Source of the DNA: Fluviicola sp. | GTDB lineage: Bacteria; Bacteroidota; Bacteroidia; Flavobacteriales_D; Crocinitomicaceae | Direction of reading: 5' to 3' | Length of the DNA: 64,000 nt | Assembly: GCA_002734085.1 (NCBI GenBank) | Contig: NVXV01000004.1 | Coordinates: 162,997 to 226,996 of the forward strand | Part shown: positions 10,502 to 21,635 of the stretch, piece by piece | Layout: every line of letters begins with the position of its first letter | Position numbering within the stretch: position 1 is the stretch's first letter | Notes under the pieces: generated by a model | Told to the model about the DNA's origin: nothing | The model's database searches: none | What the model saw: only the letters and a program-made list of their open reading frames with translations | Made by a program: the position numbers and the translations under genes

Positions 10502-12547
10502 CAGATAGTATATTCATAAATTGGTATTTTTATGTGATGATTCACAGGAAGGTAAAGAGAGCCACCAACAGTAGGGTTGTTGTGAATTGCTTTCAAATTG
10601 GTATTTTTATGTGATGATTCACAGGAAAACTATGCAATGTCCTACCTTGACAACAGTTGTGAATTGCTTTCAAATTGGTATTTTTATGTGATGATTCACA
10701 GGCAGTTAGAGAAAAGATTCTTTACATGTTAGTTGTGAATTGCTTTCAAATTGGTATTTTTATGTGATGATTCACAGGAAACAAGGGAGGGTGCAACCTC
10801 TCCCATTAGTTGTGAATTGCTTTCAAATTGGTATTTTTATGTGATGATTCACAGGTTAAAGTCGGCAATTAATTCACTTAAATAAGTTGTGAATTGCTTT
10901 CAAATTGGTATTTTTATGTGATGATTCACAGGAATGAGTGATAAGTACCACTATACTAAAGTGTTGTGAATTGCTTTCAAATTGGTATTTTTATGTGATG
11001 ATTCACAGGAAAACATTTACAAGGCTGGAGGTTAATAGTGTTGTGAATTGCTTTCAAATTGGTATTTTTATGTGATGATTCACAGGTGAGCGATTTCCAT
11101 TTTTTGTTTTTGAGTGTTGTGAATTGCTTTCAAATTGGTATTTTTATGTGATGATTCACAGGTGTCTTTTTCGTTAGGTGAAGCACCAAGCGGTTGTGAA
11201 TTGCTTTCAAATTGGTATTTTTATGTGATGATTCACAGGTTCTATATTGAGATCCATAAACCAGCCACGGTTGTGAATTGCTTTCAAATTGGTATTTTTA
11301 TGTGATGATTCACAGGCATGAGTTCTTTCATTAGTGAATTCGCTACGTTGTGAATTGCTTTCAAATTGGTATTTTTATGTGATGATTCACAGGCCTATTT
11401 TCAATTTCAACTCTTTCTGATAAGTTGTGAATTGCTTTCAAATTGGTATTTTTATGTGATGATTCACAGGGTTTTTCTTTGGCGTATGAATCATTCTTTG
11501 GTTGTGAATTGCTTTCAAATTGGTATTTTTATGTGATGATTCACAGGTTTCTAGAATGGCGCAGTTGGCCAGACCTGGTTGTGAATTGCTTTCAAATTGG
11601 TATTTTTATGTGATGATTCACAGGCCATAGTTACAAATGTACAAGGGGTTCGTGGTTGTGAATTGCTTTCAAATTGGTATTTTTATGTGATGATTCACAG
11701 GAATTACTTTGTCCCGCCTGTGTCCCGGCTAGTTGTGAATTGCTTTCAAATTGGTATTTTTATGTGATGATTCACAGGATTTTCACAATCGCAACCCGCG
11801 TTACCGCCGTTGTGAATTGCTTTCAAATTGGTATTTTTATGTGATGATTCACAGGTCGAAGAATCTAGAATAGTTGAATTAACTTGTTGTGAATTGCTTT
11901 CAAATTGGTATTTTTATGTGATGATTCACAGGTGGACGACGTGCACGAGATTAAGGTCTATAGTTGTGAATTGCTTTCAAATTGGTATTTTTATGTGATG
12001 ATTCACAGGAGCCGTCAGCTCTAAGCTTGAAAGGACGCAGTTGTGAATTGCTTTCAAATTGGTATTTTTATGTGATGATTCACAGGCAAGCTGAGAAAGC
12101 GGCAGAAGGTGCAACTGTTGTGAATTGCTTTCAAATTGGTATTTTTATGTGATGATTCACAGGTCGACAAAAATCGAATACTGCAGGAAGAGAGTTGTGA
12201 ATTGCTTTCAAATTGGTATTTTTATGTGATGATTCACAGGTTCGTAGATATAGATGAGTCGGGAGAGGTAGTTGTGAATTGCTTTCAAATTGGTATTTTT
12301 ATGTGATGATTCACAGGATACAGGCCGTACAGGCTGCGTACTCTTCGGTTGTGAATTGCTTTCAAATTGGTATTTTTATGTGATGATTCACAGGCTTACC
12401 CTGGAAGGTCGTAAAACTGTCAGGTTGTGAATTGCTTTCAAATTGGTATTTTTATGTGATGATTCACAGGAGCCTACCTTTTGACATGTTGGTAGTAGAC
12501 GTTGTGAATTGCTTTCAAATTGGTATTTTTATGTGATGATTCACAGG
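10502..12547 (+). CRISPR. Type II-C CRISPR array: 27 repeats (47 bp, first degenerate), 26 spacers (23 x 30 nt, 3 x 29 nt)
   Basis: Repeat GTTGTGAATTGCTTTCAAATTGGTATTTTTATGTGATGATTCACAGG; crRNA sense assigned to + by complementarity to tracrRNA anti-repeat. Confidence 0.99.
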
Positions 12548-12548
12548 A

Positions 12549-12573
12549 GACCGCCCCGAAAAGGGCGGTTTTT
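12549..12573 (+). terminator. Rho-independent terminator immediately after last CRISPR repeat
   Basis: ACCGCCC cgaaaa GGGCGGT then T-run. Confidence 0.85.
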
Positions 12574-12739: not shown

Positions 12740-13630
12740 ATGATCAAACGCACACTTTTCTTTGAAAACCCTGCTTACCTTAGCACAAAAGATGAACAAC
12801 TTATTGTAAAGTTTCCCGATAAAGACGAAGTTCGAACAGTTCCGATAGAGGACATTGGTATGCTTATATTAGAACACCATCAAATTACTTTTACCAATCG
12901 GTTAATTGAAAAGTTGACGTATCAAAATGCAGCCATTGTTTGTTGTAACCAGCAGCACTTGCCTTTAAGTTTAATTTCTCCGTTGAGTGGTCATTCAGAA
13001 TTTAATGAACGACTTCGTTTTCAATTAGAAGCTTCCATTCCATTAAAAAAGAACTTATGGCAACAAACAATACAGGCTAAAATTAATAATCAGGCGAATG
13101 GATTGGCGATTCTCAATAAACAGAATGACAAGTTGCGAAAGTGGTCGAGGGAAGTATTGTCTGGTGACGCAACAAACAAAGAGGCCAATGCTGCTGCTTT
13201 TTATTGGGAACGGTTTTTTGAGATTTCCGATTTTTACAGAGGTCAAAAAGCAATGGCACCAAATAATTTGTTGAATTACGGTTATGCTATTTTAAGGGCA
13301 ATTTGTGCACGTTCCTTAATAGGAAGTGGATTATTACCCGCCTTAGGTATTCATCATGCGAATAAATACAATGCATATTGTTTGGCGGATGATATTATGG
13401 AACCTTATCGCCCTTTTGTGGATCAAGTGGTTTACAGCATTGTTGAACAAACAGAGAACATAGAAAAACTAACAAAAGAAATAAAGCAACAATTATTAAT
13501 CATCCCTGCAATTGATGTAAAAATAGATGGCAAGAAAAGCCCTTTAATGGTAGCAATGAGTCGAACTACTCACTCTTTGTACGAATGTTATGCAGGTGTA
13601 TCCCGAAAAATTTTATACCCCGTATTATGA
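12740..13630 (+). CDS. cas1: CRISPR-associated endonuclease Cas1, type II
   Basis: [95 protein letters not shown]. Confidence 0.97.
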
Positions 13631-17000: not shown

Positions 17001-18276
17001 TTTTTTTCGGCAGTCCACTTAACTTATTAAAAACTAATTCTCCATACTTATCTTTGTTGTCAATTTCCCAACTTTCAAATTGACAAAAACTAACAAGCCC
17101 TTTTTGAGATTTCAATTTGCGCTGATAGAAAATAATAACATCCCTTACTTGTTCCTTAAGTTCTTTTGTTAAAACTGAATAAAACTTTGCTTGAATTTCC
17201 CAAATCTTTTCGAACTCATCTAAATAGTCTTGTCTATAAAACACTTGACTTTTCAAAGAAGTATGTGGGTTTTCATGAATTTGATTATAAAGATACTCTC
17301 CAACTGTTAGTTTATTAAAGAGTAACTCTTTACTTCTATCACTAATCGCTCCTAAGTATCCACTTGACTTTTTTAACTCATTATTAATTTCAACAAGGAC
17401 AAAAGCAACTTGTTCAATGGTCAGGTTTTCTTTTATAGCATTTGCTCTCCATCCATAAGCTTCTATTTTTTTTTCATCTCGACTTCCTTTGTTTTCAGCA
17501 GTATAAATTTGTTTAATTGCTAAAAATCTTTTTTGAGTATTTTGCTTACCTTGATTCTTTAAAGAGTTATATAGGTTATCATCTAAAATATCAGGGTAAA
17601 ACTGTTTTTGAAATTCCCAAATAGCATCAAATTCATTTTGTAAATCAGACCTATAAAAATCCGGAATATATTTCTTCCCATTATTTAGTAGTTCTAAAAC
17701 ATATTGCCCTGGAGTGATTTCTCTTTCATAAAGTTCTTTAGCAATGGACATACCATCAATAACTTGTCCCTCATCTTCATTCGAAACTTTACGACTACTT
17801 TTATAGCCACGTTTTTTATTAATGGCCAAAAGAATACGTGCAAACTCCTCTAATTCAACTTTCTCTTTAGCACTTTTAGCTCTTAGCTTTAAAGTTTGAT
17901 GAGTTGTGTCTTTTCCTACCTCAGTTAGTGCTGTGTCGTTTTGTATAATGTTATTTTTCAATAAAATTTCTAGTAAGTTTTTCCTTCTTAACTTATATCT
18001 CTGTAGGTTTCTTCTGGCACCTCTCTTCAAAGTTCTTGCTGCATTAGGTGAAAGACCTTTTCCAGTGGCAAAATCTTCTATAGGATTTTTTGATTCAGAA
18101 ACTTTTCCACTTTTATCAATCTTAGAAAATGTATCATATTGAATCACTCTTACACCTAGTTTAACGATACTTGACTTTTCTTTATCATTTGATGCTTCTT
18201 TCACCAATGCCCACCCAATACTATTAGTTCCCAAATCAAGTCCTAAAACTGTTTTCATCTTGTTAAATTCTTTCAT
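14038..18276 (-). CDS. cas9: Cas9, type II-C, about 1406-1412 aa
   Basis: RuvC-I LGLDLGTNSIGWALV; Arg-rich bridge helix RTLKRGARRNLQRYKLRRKNLLEIL; RuvC-II EIRIELARELKKS; HNH DIEHIIPKALLFDDSFSNKTL; RuvC-III HHAMDALTVAF. Start may be the internal MKTVLGLDLG at 18258. Confidence 0.98.
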   Translation of the reverse strand: MKEFNKMKTVLGLDLGTNSIGWALVKEASNDKEKSSIVKLGVRVIQYDTFSKIDKSGKVSESKNPIEDFATGKGLSPNAARTLKRGARRNLQRYKLRRKNLLEILLKNNIIQNDTALTEVGKDTTHQTLKLRAKSAKEKVELEEFARILLAINKKRGYKSSRKVSNEDEGQVIDGMSIAKELYEREITPGQYVLELLNNGKKYIPDFYRSDLQNEFDAIWEFQKQFYPDILDDNLYNSLKNQGKQNTQKRFLAIKQIYTAENKGSRDEKKIEAYGWRANAIKENLTIEQVAFVLVEINNELKKSSGYLGAISDRSKELLFNKLTVGEYLYNQIHENPHTSLKSQVFYRQDYLDEFEKIWEIQAKFYSVLTKELKEQVRDVIIFYQRKLKSQKGLVSFCQFESWEIDNKDKYGELVFNKLSGLPKKITIGQKVIPKSSPLFQEFKIWQNINNLEFRKIKGKQTNDKDFYVLDEEDRNLLFQELNVRGKLTEKELFKLLGLKSKEWKTNYTESGLEGNRTNEALYNIYQAIALNAGYGHDWNKKNAKEIKEELEEVFPSLGINVNILNFDALIEGNEFEKQESYQLWHLLYSIEEDDKVSKEDRLIYGNNSVTLKKNLCKKFGFTPEQANLLASVSLQDDYGNLSTKAIRKIMPYLAEGMNFYEASKEAGYNHSNSLSKEDNDKRVLKNKLDILPKNSLRNPVVEKILNQVINLVNQVVDKYGKPDEIRIELARELKKSAKEKADAVKFINSNTSLNEDVRNIIKKEFGFVPTRNDVIRYKLWMELKDNNYKSLFTNKYISKDKIFSKEIDIEHIIPKALLFDDSFSNKTLAYRNVNLKKGDRTAIDFITEDYASEKEQYLGRVESLYQSNAISRGKYKKLQMTKEKLPEDFIERDLRNSQYIAKKAKSILQDLIRNPIVSTTGRITDELRNDWDLVNVMKELNLPKYRSLGLTEKQTRWDVGQEKEKEVEVISSWTKRNDHRHHAMDALTVAFTTHNHIQYINNLSARKNQNSDMHKTILNVEKKIKHKNENGKNVFISPMPNFRKEAKRHIESILISFKPRNKVVTQNINKTSKKKGVNEKIQLTPRGQMHKETVYGKIKRPLSKPVKISKKLNLEQAELIIDKQIRQLVLDHLLKYRNDPTKAFDTKTLKKDPIVWNNSELKHIKCFEEIFTIRKDIGPDLKIDKVIDPKIKSILQNRIKEMGSAKDAFTDIEKNPIWINKDKGICIKRVTITGVSNAEALHSAKDHFGKEIIDEEGSTKAVDFVSTGNNHHVAIYEDENGDLHEEVVPFYEAVARVNANLPIINKEHKNGWRFLFTLKQNEMFIFPNEEKMFDPNGIDLEDEKNYYEISPNLFRVQKIGSKDYWFRHHLEATLNDIEDVTYKRKRNPKSIGNIIKVRLNHLGEIVRIGEY

Positions 18277-18294
18277 CTATATAATATTTAATTT

Positions 18295-18810
18295 CTATAC
18301 ATCAATCCTAAAGCCCTGCCGATACCGATCAACAGCATCATCAGATCTACTATTATCTAGGTCCGCATTTAGAACATTTTCACGAGAAGTGAGTAATTCG
18401 GTGTAGAGTTGGACATAAATGGTGTCTCGAATATAATCATTATTTTTAATTTCTTTCAATTGATTAATATTTATAAAAACCTGTGTTTCAACTCCTGCAT
18501 CCAACATTTTAGCAGTTACTACATTTTCATAAGCTGGTAAATAACCAATCTTTCTACCTTGAACGTAAACTGCAATTGCAAAATGGTCATATTTATTATT
18601 AGGTTCTCGTTCTAATTTTGGAGATAAAGGTTCAGTAAAATCAATTTTCTGCAGTGCTTCTTGGTAGTAGATTGTTCCTTTTAAGTAATTATCATATATA
18701 CAAATCGGATTCATGTTTAAGTTATTCCTTTCCGAAGCACTTACTATTTTAGCTATAGAGAGTCCTGCACCTGTCAGTATTCCAGCTCGAATAAATTCTT
18801 TTCTTTGCAT
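18295..18810 (-). CDS. HIRAN domain-containing protein with Tat-like N-terminus, upstream of cas9 on the same strand
   Basis: EPNNKYDHFAIAVYVQGRKIGYLPAYENVVTAKMLDAGV is HIRAN-like; N-terminus MQRKEFIRAGILTGAGLSIAKIVSA; 18-bp gap to cas9 ORF; start chosen at internal M12 of ORF 18295..18843. Confidence 0.75.
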   Translation of the reverse strand: MQRKEFIRAGILTGAGLSIAKIVSASERNNLNMNPICIYDNYLKGTIYYQEALQKIDFTEPLSPKLEREPNNKYDHFAIAVYVQGRKIGYLPAYENVVTAKMLDAGVETQVFININQLKEIKNNDYIRDTIYVQLYTELLTSRENVLNADLDNSRSDDAVDRYRQGFRIDV

Positions 18811-18813
18811 ATC

Positions 18814-18838
18814 GTTTAATTTTCTGATAAAATTAAAC
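18814..18838. promoter_or_regulatory. Perfect inverted repeat just upstream of HIRAN-cas9 start codon (putative operator or 5'UTR hairpin)
   Basis: GTTTAATTTT ctgat AAAATTAAAC, 10-bp perfect arms. Confidence 0.55.
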
Positions 18839-18884
18839 CTCATGAACGTAATCTATTTACGTAGTAAAAAGTTTTAGTATTGTT

Positions 18885-18918: not shown

Positions 18919-19004
18919 CCAATTTTGAAAGCAATTCACAATAAGGATTATTCCGTTGTGAAAACATTTGGGTCGCCCCTTGTCCATAATCAGGGGGCTT
19001 TTTT
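18919..19004 (+). ncRNA. tracrRNA
   Basis: Anti-repeat CCAATTTTGAAAGCAATTCACAA is complementary to repeat 5' half (one extra T); nexus-like TAAGGATTATTCCGTTGTGAAAAC; terminator GCCCCTTGTCCATAATCAGGGGGCTTTTTT. Confidence 0.93.
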
Positions 19005-19123
19005 ATTCAGATTTTTCAAATCATTTACCACCATCACTTTATCTCTAAATTTAATACTGACAGCTTTCCATTCTGAATATTCAATTAGTAAATGCAACAA
19101 AAGGTTTAAAATGAATGGTAATT

Positions 19124-19200
19124 GAGAAAGTTATTCTAAAGATTTTTTGACCTCACTCAAAAGAGGTCAGAAAAAATCTTTGGAAATAACTTTTTATCTC
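19124..19200. repeat. Long imperfect inverted repeat (about 31-nt arms, 8-nt loop)
   Basis: gagaaagttattctaaagattttttgacctc / gaggtcagaaaaaatctttggaaataactttttatctc. Confidence 0.85.
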
Positions 19201-19210
19201 AAAACTAGAA

Positions 19211-19295: not shown

Positions 19296-20267
19296 TTGCA
19301 TATGAAACATTTATCTATTGAGCAAAGGTATCAAATAGAAGCCTATTTAAAGCTCAAACAGACCAAAGATTTTATCGCTAGGGAACTTGGGGTTGATCGC
19401 TCAACTATTTATCGAGAAATAAAGAGAAATAAGTTAAAGAGCGGAAATTATTCTGCTGCAAAAGCAGATGAATATTACAGAGATCGTAAGGATCGCTTTT
19501 CAACAAATAGAAAGTTTACTGAAGAGTGTCAAAAGGTAGCCTTAAAATACCTCAATGAACAATGGTCTCCTAAACAAATTGAAGGGTATTGTGCAAGAAA
19601 CAAGATAGAAATGGTTAGTCATGAGCGGATTTATCAGCTGATTAGAAAAGACAAACAGGAAGGAGGAAAGTTGTACACCAATCTTCGGCATCAACTCAAA
19701 TATAGAAAAAGAGCTGTCGGAAAACATTTTCCTATTGCTAATCGCACCACGATTGAAGAAAGACCAGAAATAGTAAACATGAAAACTCGATTTGGTGACT
19801 GGGAAATGGATACAATTATAGGCGCCAACCAAAAAGGTGTTATTCTAACCCTCACAGAAAGAATGACCAATTTTGTCTTCATAGAAAAGCTTGATTTAGG
19901 AAAAAATGCAGAAGGGTTAAAAAATCAAATCATAAATCTTTTGCTTCCATACAAAGATTTTGTGCATACAATAACAACAGACAATGGTCCTGAGTTCGCT
20001 CAGCATTTACAAATCAGTAAAAAGATAAAAGCAGCTATCTACTTTGCTCATCCCTACTGTTCTTGGGAGAAAGGATCTATTGAGCATGCAAATAAGTTAA
20101 TTAGACAATATGTGAAAAAAGAAGATGATTTAAGCATTTACACAAAAGAACAACTAGTTGAATTTCAACACAAAATAAATAACAGACCCAGGGAAAAGTT
20201 AGAATATGACTGCCCTAAGAATATATTTTATAATTTAGTAAACGGTAATGTCGCATTTGCCAGTTGA
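19296..20267 (+). mobile_element. IS30-family transposase (element ends not resolved)
   Basis: MKHLSIEQRYQIEAYLKLKQTKDFIARELGVDRSTIYREIKRN HTH; DWEMDTIIGANQKGVILTLTER; TTDNGPEFAQH; CSWEKGSIEHANKLIRQY (DDE catalytic domain). Confidence 0.93.
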
Positions 20268-20577: not shown

Positions 20578-20833
20578 CCATTCAGACGCATCGTTTACCT
20601 CTTCAGATGAGGGCGTACATCGCTCAGACGCACCCAAAGCCTCTTCAGATGCTCTGGTGAACTGTTCAGACGGACTTGTACAACGTTCAGATGCACTCGG
20701 GAGTCGTTCAGATACACTTGAGAGGTGTTCATAACCACTTTGACATTGTTCATAACGATTTGGACAGTCTTCAGATGCACTTGGAAGGTGTTCATATCCA
20801 CTTGGACGGTCTTCAGATGCACTTGAAAGGTGT
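20578..20833. repeat. 21-bp minisatellite, about 12 degenerate tandem units
   Basis: Units like TTCAGATGCACTTGGAAGGTG / TTCATATCCACTTGGACGGTC; a multiple of 3, so several frames stay open. Confidence 0.93.
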
Positions 20834-21058
20834 GTTAGCGGATTACTCAATGCTACATTTCAATCAATTAGTCGCACAGTTTACACTCACAGTACCTTGA
20901 TTTAACAGGTGTTAACACTTTTCGGCATGGGATTGGATGTTTAAGCTTTTAGCCATTTCAAATCATCCTTCATCAACATAATTTAAAACGAAGTCAGTTC
21001 AATTGATAATGCGTGCATCGAGTCTGCTGAGATAAAAACACCGTAAAGTAAGTTAAAT

Positions 21059-21400
21059 TCAATACCGTAAGATATCATCCAAACAGAGCTTAAGCTCTTT
21101 TAATTGGGATTCGTTGATCTCCCCCACTTTTTTAATCAAACGGTCTTTTGAAATGGAGCGAATATGAAAAGTCATGACCTCAGATTTAGCTGTCAGGTTA
21201 TTTCGTTTGTTGGGCGATAGAATTATATTTCCTTTATAATTTTTGATTTTACTCGTTAAAGGACAGCAAATTACCACATTTAAATGTGTATTCATCAGGT
21301 TTCCACTCACCACTAATACAGGTCTTGTTCCCGCTTGCTCACTTCCTTTCGCTGGATTCAGATTTACCAACCATATTTCACATTGCTTAACCTTCTTCAT
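21059..21400 (-). CDS. PemK/MazF-family toxin
   Basis: CEIWLVNLNPAKGSEQAGTRPVLVVSGNLMN, VVICCPLTSKIKNYKGNIIL. Confidence 0.9.
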   Translation of the reverse strand: MKKVKQCEIWLVNLNPAKGSEQAGTRPVLVVSGNLMNTHLNVVICCPLTSKIKNYKGNIILSPNKRNNLTAKSEVMTFHIRSISKDRLIKKVGEINESQLKELKLCLDDILRY

Positions 21401-21635
21401 CTTCCTGATCTAATTGAGAAAGATAATCTTCCATCCCTTCTTCTGCTATTTGAGTAATATCTTCATCATTCCCCATTCTCTTATACGACTTCACATAATC
21501 CGCACGATTCAATTGGTCCAAATAAATACTCAACGCTTTTTCAATCAACTTGTTTTTAGGCATACCCAGCTCCTTTGCCTTCTGTTCTAAAAGCTTCAAG
21601 AGGTGATTGGGAAGTGAACTGGTAAATGTTGCCAT
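21387..21635 (-). CDS. Cognate antitoxin (ribbon-helix-helix/CopG-like)
   Basis: MATFTSSLPNHLLKLLEQKAKELGMPKNKLIEKALSIYLDQL; overlaps toxin start by 14 bp. Confidence 0.8.
   Translation of the reverse strand: MATFTSSLPNHLLKLLEQKAKELGMPKNKLIEKALSIYLDQLNRADYVKSYKRMGNDEDITQIAEEGMEDYLSQLDQEDEEG

Follow-up and report, generated by a model that had tools for sequence, protein, structure and literature searches.

A HIRAN-domain gene recurrently adjoins cas9 in type II-C CRISPR loci of Bacteroidota and is a candidate Cas9 accessory

A gene for a small HIRAN-domain protein adjoins cas9, on the same strand, in a type II-C CRISPR locus of Fluviicola sp. (the window, by which we mean the whole stretch of 64,000 nucleotides that was analysed), and the same arrangement is found for all eight intact members of its closest family, which come from five bacterial families and eight genera and were recovered by searching about 1,700 genomes of Bacteroidota. 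We regard it as very probable that this gene is a functionally linked accessory of the Cas9 locus. Our overall reading, to which we assign a probability of about 0.5, is that it represents an optional II-C accessory of Bacteroidota, expressed with cas9, whose small product acts on the effector side by capturing strand ends; the strand-end mechanism, taken by itself, is tentative and stands somewhat below even odds.

Literature searches found no report of a cas9-linked HIRAN; HIRAN in combination with cas1 returned none, and HIRAN domain in combination with CRISPR returned none whose title and abstract concerned cas9 loci. A 2024 study by Zhang is reported to identify new genes associated with II-C Cas9 and, an earlier listing there being possible, we call the cas9-linked HIRAN an undescribed accessory only provisionally. 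Cas9 has few accessory proteins, and the example of PcrIIC1 shows that they can raise its DNA binding, cleavage and targeting range. If our reading is correct, many divergent Cas9s are encoded together with a strand-end binder, which would be relevant both to the release of cut DNA by Cas9 and to the making of spacers by II-C systems that have neither Csn2 nor Cas4; the signature of the HIRAN family, described below, permits a direct test.

The HIRAN gene and its CRISPR locus

Within the window, cas9, cas1, cas2, array and tracrRNA are all present. The array (10.5-12.6 kb) is followed by cas1 and cas2, then by the convergent cas9-HIRAN pair and the divergent tracrRNA, an order that is inverted relative to the usual one. 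The features are as follows.

10502-12556 (no strand): CRISPR array, 47-nt repeat, 77-nt period, from repeat analysis
12740-13630 (+): cas1 (type II), TIGR03639 301 bits
13585-13977 (+): cas2, TIGR01573 74.5 bits
14038-18276 (-): cas9, type II-C, 1412 aa, TIGR01865 493.6 bits, with RuvC_III and HNH_4 matches
18295-18810 (-): HIRAN-domain protein gene, probable 171-aa form starting MQRKEF, PF08797 48.4 bits; homologues begin at the equivalent Met
18406-18687 (-): HIRAN domain proper, six-frame Pfam match G000:C36:181402-181683
18844-18863 (-): imperfect palindrome resembling a promoter or operator, TACGTAAATAGATTACGTTC, on the 5′ side of HIRAN; other loci have related elements 5′ of cas9
18920-19006 (+): tracrRNA, with anti-repeat CAATTTTGAAAGCAATTCACAA, conserved core ATTATTCCGTTGTGAAAACAT (18948-18968), terminator hairpin and T run, from core conservation, fold and repeat complementarity

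The window Cas9 carries the RuvC/HNH motifs DLGTNS, DIEHIIP and HHAMDA. The tracrRNA core is found next to most of 80 named cas9 loci, the tracrRNA folds with z = -3.07 and is complementary to the CRISPR repeat, and its region was not recognised by Rfam. Neither csn2 nor cas4 is found among the ORFs of the locus, and no extra ORF is seen between array, cas1, cas2, cas9 and HIRAN.

The HIRAN ORF, read from the farther of two ATGs, at 18843 (18295-18843, minus strand), encodes 182 aa and matches the Pfam HIRAN model PF08797 over residues 53-146 (48.4 bits, E 8.5e-13, against a curated cut-off of 24.7 bits); a Pfam scan of the source genome finds this HIRAN copy only. Translation probably begins at the second ATG, at 18808-18810, for a product of 171 aa, because homologues start at M[K/N/Q]RxxF and because the promoter-like palindrome abuts the first ATG. 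The first-pass annotation had described a small HIRAN protein on the cas9 strand, separated from the cas9 ORF by 18 bp and lying between cas9 and the tracrRNA, and in each of these respects it is borne out, the tracrRNA core being on the opposite strand. The interval it had assigned, 18258-18843, has its start inside the cas9 ORF; the gene itself occupies 18295-18810 or, with the upstream ATG, 18295-18843. The cas9 gene may in turn start at 18258 (MKTVLGLDLG) instead of 18276. A single-sequence AlphaFold model of the window protein reached a pLDDT of 32.6 and was not used.

An IS30-like transposase (19296-20267), preceded by a long hairpin (19121-19201), lies directly past the tracrRNA. It is followed by a short tandem array of units of about 21 nt (spacing 21; 20600-20845) and then by a MazF-like toxin with a small antitoxin-like gene (21059-21635, minus strand); in G001, a genome of the same genus, a similar pair separates cas2 from cas9 (L115, 705-1281, minus strand).

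Recurrence and expression with cas9

The conserved synteny that the first-pass annotation had named as a check on its proposal is precisely what the eight intact family members display, and wider searches extend it. An order-level scan of 399 genomes with the Pfam HIRAN model, compared with a scan for the window Cas9, showed that three genomes from a different genus (g15) have a HIRAN gene immediately upstream of cas9 and that G130, with a 4-bp ATGA overlap, and G149 have one immediately downstream; a truncated copy occupies the same place in G103. A class-level search, in which a profile (A2) made from six of these sequences, window included, was run over 395 genomes, gave 33 positive genomes. 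In 9 of the 32 positives other than the window genome a cas gene lies within a few hundred base pairs of HIRAN (in G622 with one small gene between), compared with fewer than 0.2 in total expected, by a rough estimate, from random placement. As cas9-linked members served as seeds for the profiles, the share of linked genes in these wider samples is biased towards linkage; the newly searched genomes were not themselves picked for it. The intact arrangements beside cas9, cas1 or cas2 are listed here.

tracrRNA-HIRAN-cas9-cas1-cas2: G644 and the g15 genomes G144, G313, G399
cas9-HIRAN-cas1-cas2: G621, G622, G149
cas9-HIRAN, with cas1-cas2 on the other strand: G747, G130
tracrRNA-cas9-HIRAN: G645
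HIRAN just past the tracrRNA: G436, G643
cas9...cas1-cas2-HIRAN: G561

In all cas-adjacent loci but one, HIRAN lies on the cas9 strand. No HIRAN gene was detected in any of the 80 named cas9 loci most similar to that of the window; therefore HIRAN is optional, and Cas9 does not need it.

In a tree of 37 rows the window protein falls within a nine-row clade (94/92) of which eight members are cas9-linked, the ninth being a sister in a genome (G586) where no cas9 was found. The eight linked members have 20 invariant columns in common and carry a signature consisting of an N-terminal M-x-[R/Q]-x-x-F, IYxNY, AYENxV and a C-terminal DD/DN-x3-YR. A profile of these eight, run against 376 phylum-level genomes and against two more orders, recovered no clade member that lacks the cas9 linkage, the weaker matches being other HIRAN groups. 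A second clade (89/96), with six more cas9-linked and three unlinked members, is also enriched for cas9. Mapping HIRAN onto a Cas9 tree of 106 rows takes 12 changes, of which supported branches force at least 10. Therefore, the pairing was acquired, or maintained in the face of loss, on many occasions. The HIRAN proteins of g15 (L117, L118, L120) carry at the C-terminus a further domain, roughly 160 aa long, that is of no recognised kind. A phage origin was considered and rejected, no relative being present in IMG/VR or INPHARED; one distant match is on a plasmid.

The spacing of the genes suggests joint expression. The HIRAN start overlaps the cas9 stop by 4 bp (ATGA) in two members (L020/L208 and L175), as compared with the 18-bp gap of the window. 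The HIRAN gene of the window, of G644 and of the g15 genomes occupies the interval between tracrRNA and cas9, a distance that is usually about 130 bp from the tracrRNA core in HIRAN-less loci, and in the window and g15 loci it is placed between an AACGTA-N7-TACGTT-like element and cas9. Given the short gap, the overlaps and this placement, HIRAN is likely to be co-transcribed with cas9; together with the same-strand recurrence, these observations make shared transcription and an accessory role likely. The palindrome-like element (core ATAGATTACG) recurs in the stretch from tracrRNA to cas9 in several II-C loci of Bacteroidota, both HIRAN-bearing and HIRAN-less (the window, L118, L120, L122, L133, L073, L119, L124, L127), including positions 5′ of cas9 where no HIRAN is seen (L122, L133 and L073, with variants at L119, L124 and L127), and is a candidate cas9 operator.

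In several II-C loci a Y1-type (RAYT-like) transposase gene is located near cas9 or separates cas9/HIRAN from cas1; in four of them it lies beside HIRAN (L174 3787-4404, L207 1277-1873, L176 125-376, L195 7815-8420). It is conceivable that the HIRAN gene plays no part in CRISPR and was simply brought to the vicinity of a defence locus by mobile DNA, in keeping with these transposases, with the IS30-like transposase that adjoins the window tracrRNA, and with the one strand exception among the cas-adjacent loci (L192 in G718), which is divergent, belongs to a clade (g79) that is otherwise unlinked and is probably due to chance. We consider this very unlikely, however, in view of the repeated same-strand operon placement, the ATGA overlaps, the conserved cas9-linked signature and the scatter over Cas9 lineages; moreover, Y1-type transposases also occur in four of 80 HIRAN-less loci (L043, L064, L069, L093).

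The N-terminus and the putative DNA-end pocket

The first-pass annotation had likened the N-terminus to a Tat-type signal, which would export the protein away from Cas9. Part of this likeness is real: an R-x-x-F-[LIV] motif and a stretch of weak hydrophobicity (15-residue mean KD 1.1-1.65) are conserved in nearly all cas9-linked members. The twin arginine is not, as RRxF[LIV] occurs in register in none of the 11 cas9-linked proteins tested (the window has QRKEFI) and the N-terminus of L176 has no R altogether; Tat export of the cas9-linked proteins is therefore not supported. HIRANs with a similar N-terminus also occur far from any cas gene, and two of these (L244, L245) have an intact twin-arginine leader (MFTRRAFLK), which suggests that they form an exported HIRAN group. 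The leader of the cas9-linked proteins may have been inherited from an exported ancestor. That these proteins are themselves exported or membrane-anchored, by Tat or by a signal anchor, and act in a manner unrelated to Cas9 would explain the conserved leader and its full TRRAFLK form in the unlinked proteins, but seems improbable to us given the missing twin arginine, and a DNA-binding fold encoded within a cas9 operon is better suited to the cytoplasm, where we infer the HIRAN protein to reside.

The family profile matches the HIRAN structures of HLTF (E ~1e-5) as well as lp_0118 (1.9e-10). Residues Y59 and N82-N83-x-Y85 of the window protein (numbered on the 182-aa ORF) align with HLTF Y72 and N90-N91-x-Y93; in HLTF, Y72 and Y93 border a cavity that holds an ssDNA dinucleotide, and NN90,91AA is the HIRAN point mutant (PMC4666394). 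Binding to ssDNA is shared by the HIRANs of HLTF and Rad5, the latter of which has in addition a protein partner, PCNA (PMC7804152). Within the family the pocket residues vary, the Y93 position being H in three of the eight members and the N91 position H in two. On the strength of this alignment, DNA-end binding is predicted for the window protein.

Possible roles and comparison with known systems

We propose that the HIRAN protein would be made together with Cas9 and act on the effector side, where its pocket may capture free single-stranded 3′ ends or short ssDNA that Cas9 produces or exposes, for example the released non-target strand or prespacer overhangs. Cut invader DNA could thereby be turned over, processed at its ends or handed over more readily. 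A partnership with Cas9 is part of this proposal. In the three loci where cas1-cas2 lie on the opposite strand (window, L175, L208) HIRAN remains with cas9, and therefore an effector-side role is favoured over one in adaptation.

Type II loci can encode small proteins that handle DNA ends, Csn2 in type II-A and Cas4 in type II-B. The HIRAN protein could be an adaptation accessory of roughly this sort, binding prespacer 3′ overhangs for Cas1-Cas2, which would accord with ssDNA binding by the HLTF HIRAN, with the absence of csn2 and cas4 among the locus ORFs, and with the position of HIRAN between cas9 and cas1 in L174, L180 and L207; in L179 it follows cas2, which fits adaptation equally. We think this possible but on the unlikely side, since the three loci with opposite-strand cas1-cas2 keep HIRAN at cas9, overlapping it or 18 bp off. 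Any functional analogy with Csn2 or Cas4 would in any case join proteins of unrelated folds, and the HIRAN gene tracks cas9 rather than cas1-cas2 when the strands oppose. A broader and rather doubtful extension of the strand-capture reading is that HIRAN-bearing II-C loci constitute a distinct variant, in which a 3′-end-binding protein would capture Cas9-cut strands and pass them to processing or to Cas1-Cas2, thereby coupling interference to memory without Csn2 or Cas4.

Alternatively, the protein might bind Cas9 and raise its target binding or cleavage, the HIRAN fold contacting protein or guide RNA and not DNA ends. There is a precedent in II-C loci in PcrIIC1, a PIN-domain protein that binds a C-terminal helix of Cas9 (PMC13153721, PMC12669027); the Rad5 HIRAN binds protein too (PMC7804152), and the ATGA coupling to cas9 suggests matched amounts. 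We nevertheless think this role unlikely, if plausible, as the linked Cas9s are very divergent and most of the linked HIRANs belong to one clade, which makes a single conserved Cas9 contact harder to envisage. PcrIIC1 is likewise an optional accessory in Bacteroidota type II-C cas9 loci. Identity with PcrIIC1 itself was rejected, as HIRAN is the only Pfam match in the window protein and a PIN domain is not matched.

HIRAN-HipA operons have been described (PMC8262856, PMC11706625), in which the HIRAN protein is proposed to serve as a HipI-like antitoxin next to a HipA kinase, and the PADLOC model that matches the window protein is PDC-M03B. HipI and PDC-M03B are thus also bacterial HIRAN proteins of defence or toxin-antitoxin settings. 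An antitoxin role is nonetheless exceedingly improbable and largely refuted for the window HIRAN because the HipA kinase partner is missing: no HipA-like ORF was recognised among the translations read near the gene or in the listed cas9-linked gaps.

The comparison that bears on the strand-end reading is with the HIRANs of HLTF and Rad5, to which the window protein is tied by a Pfam match over the cut-off and by identical residues at the positions of Y72, N90, N91 and Y93. Unlike them, it is a small stand-alone protein with neither ATPase nor RING, and it combines a Tat-like N-terminus and a C-terminal DD/DN-x3-YR tail with a gene position next to cas9.
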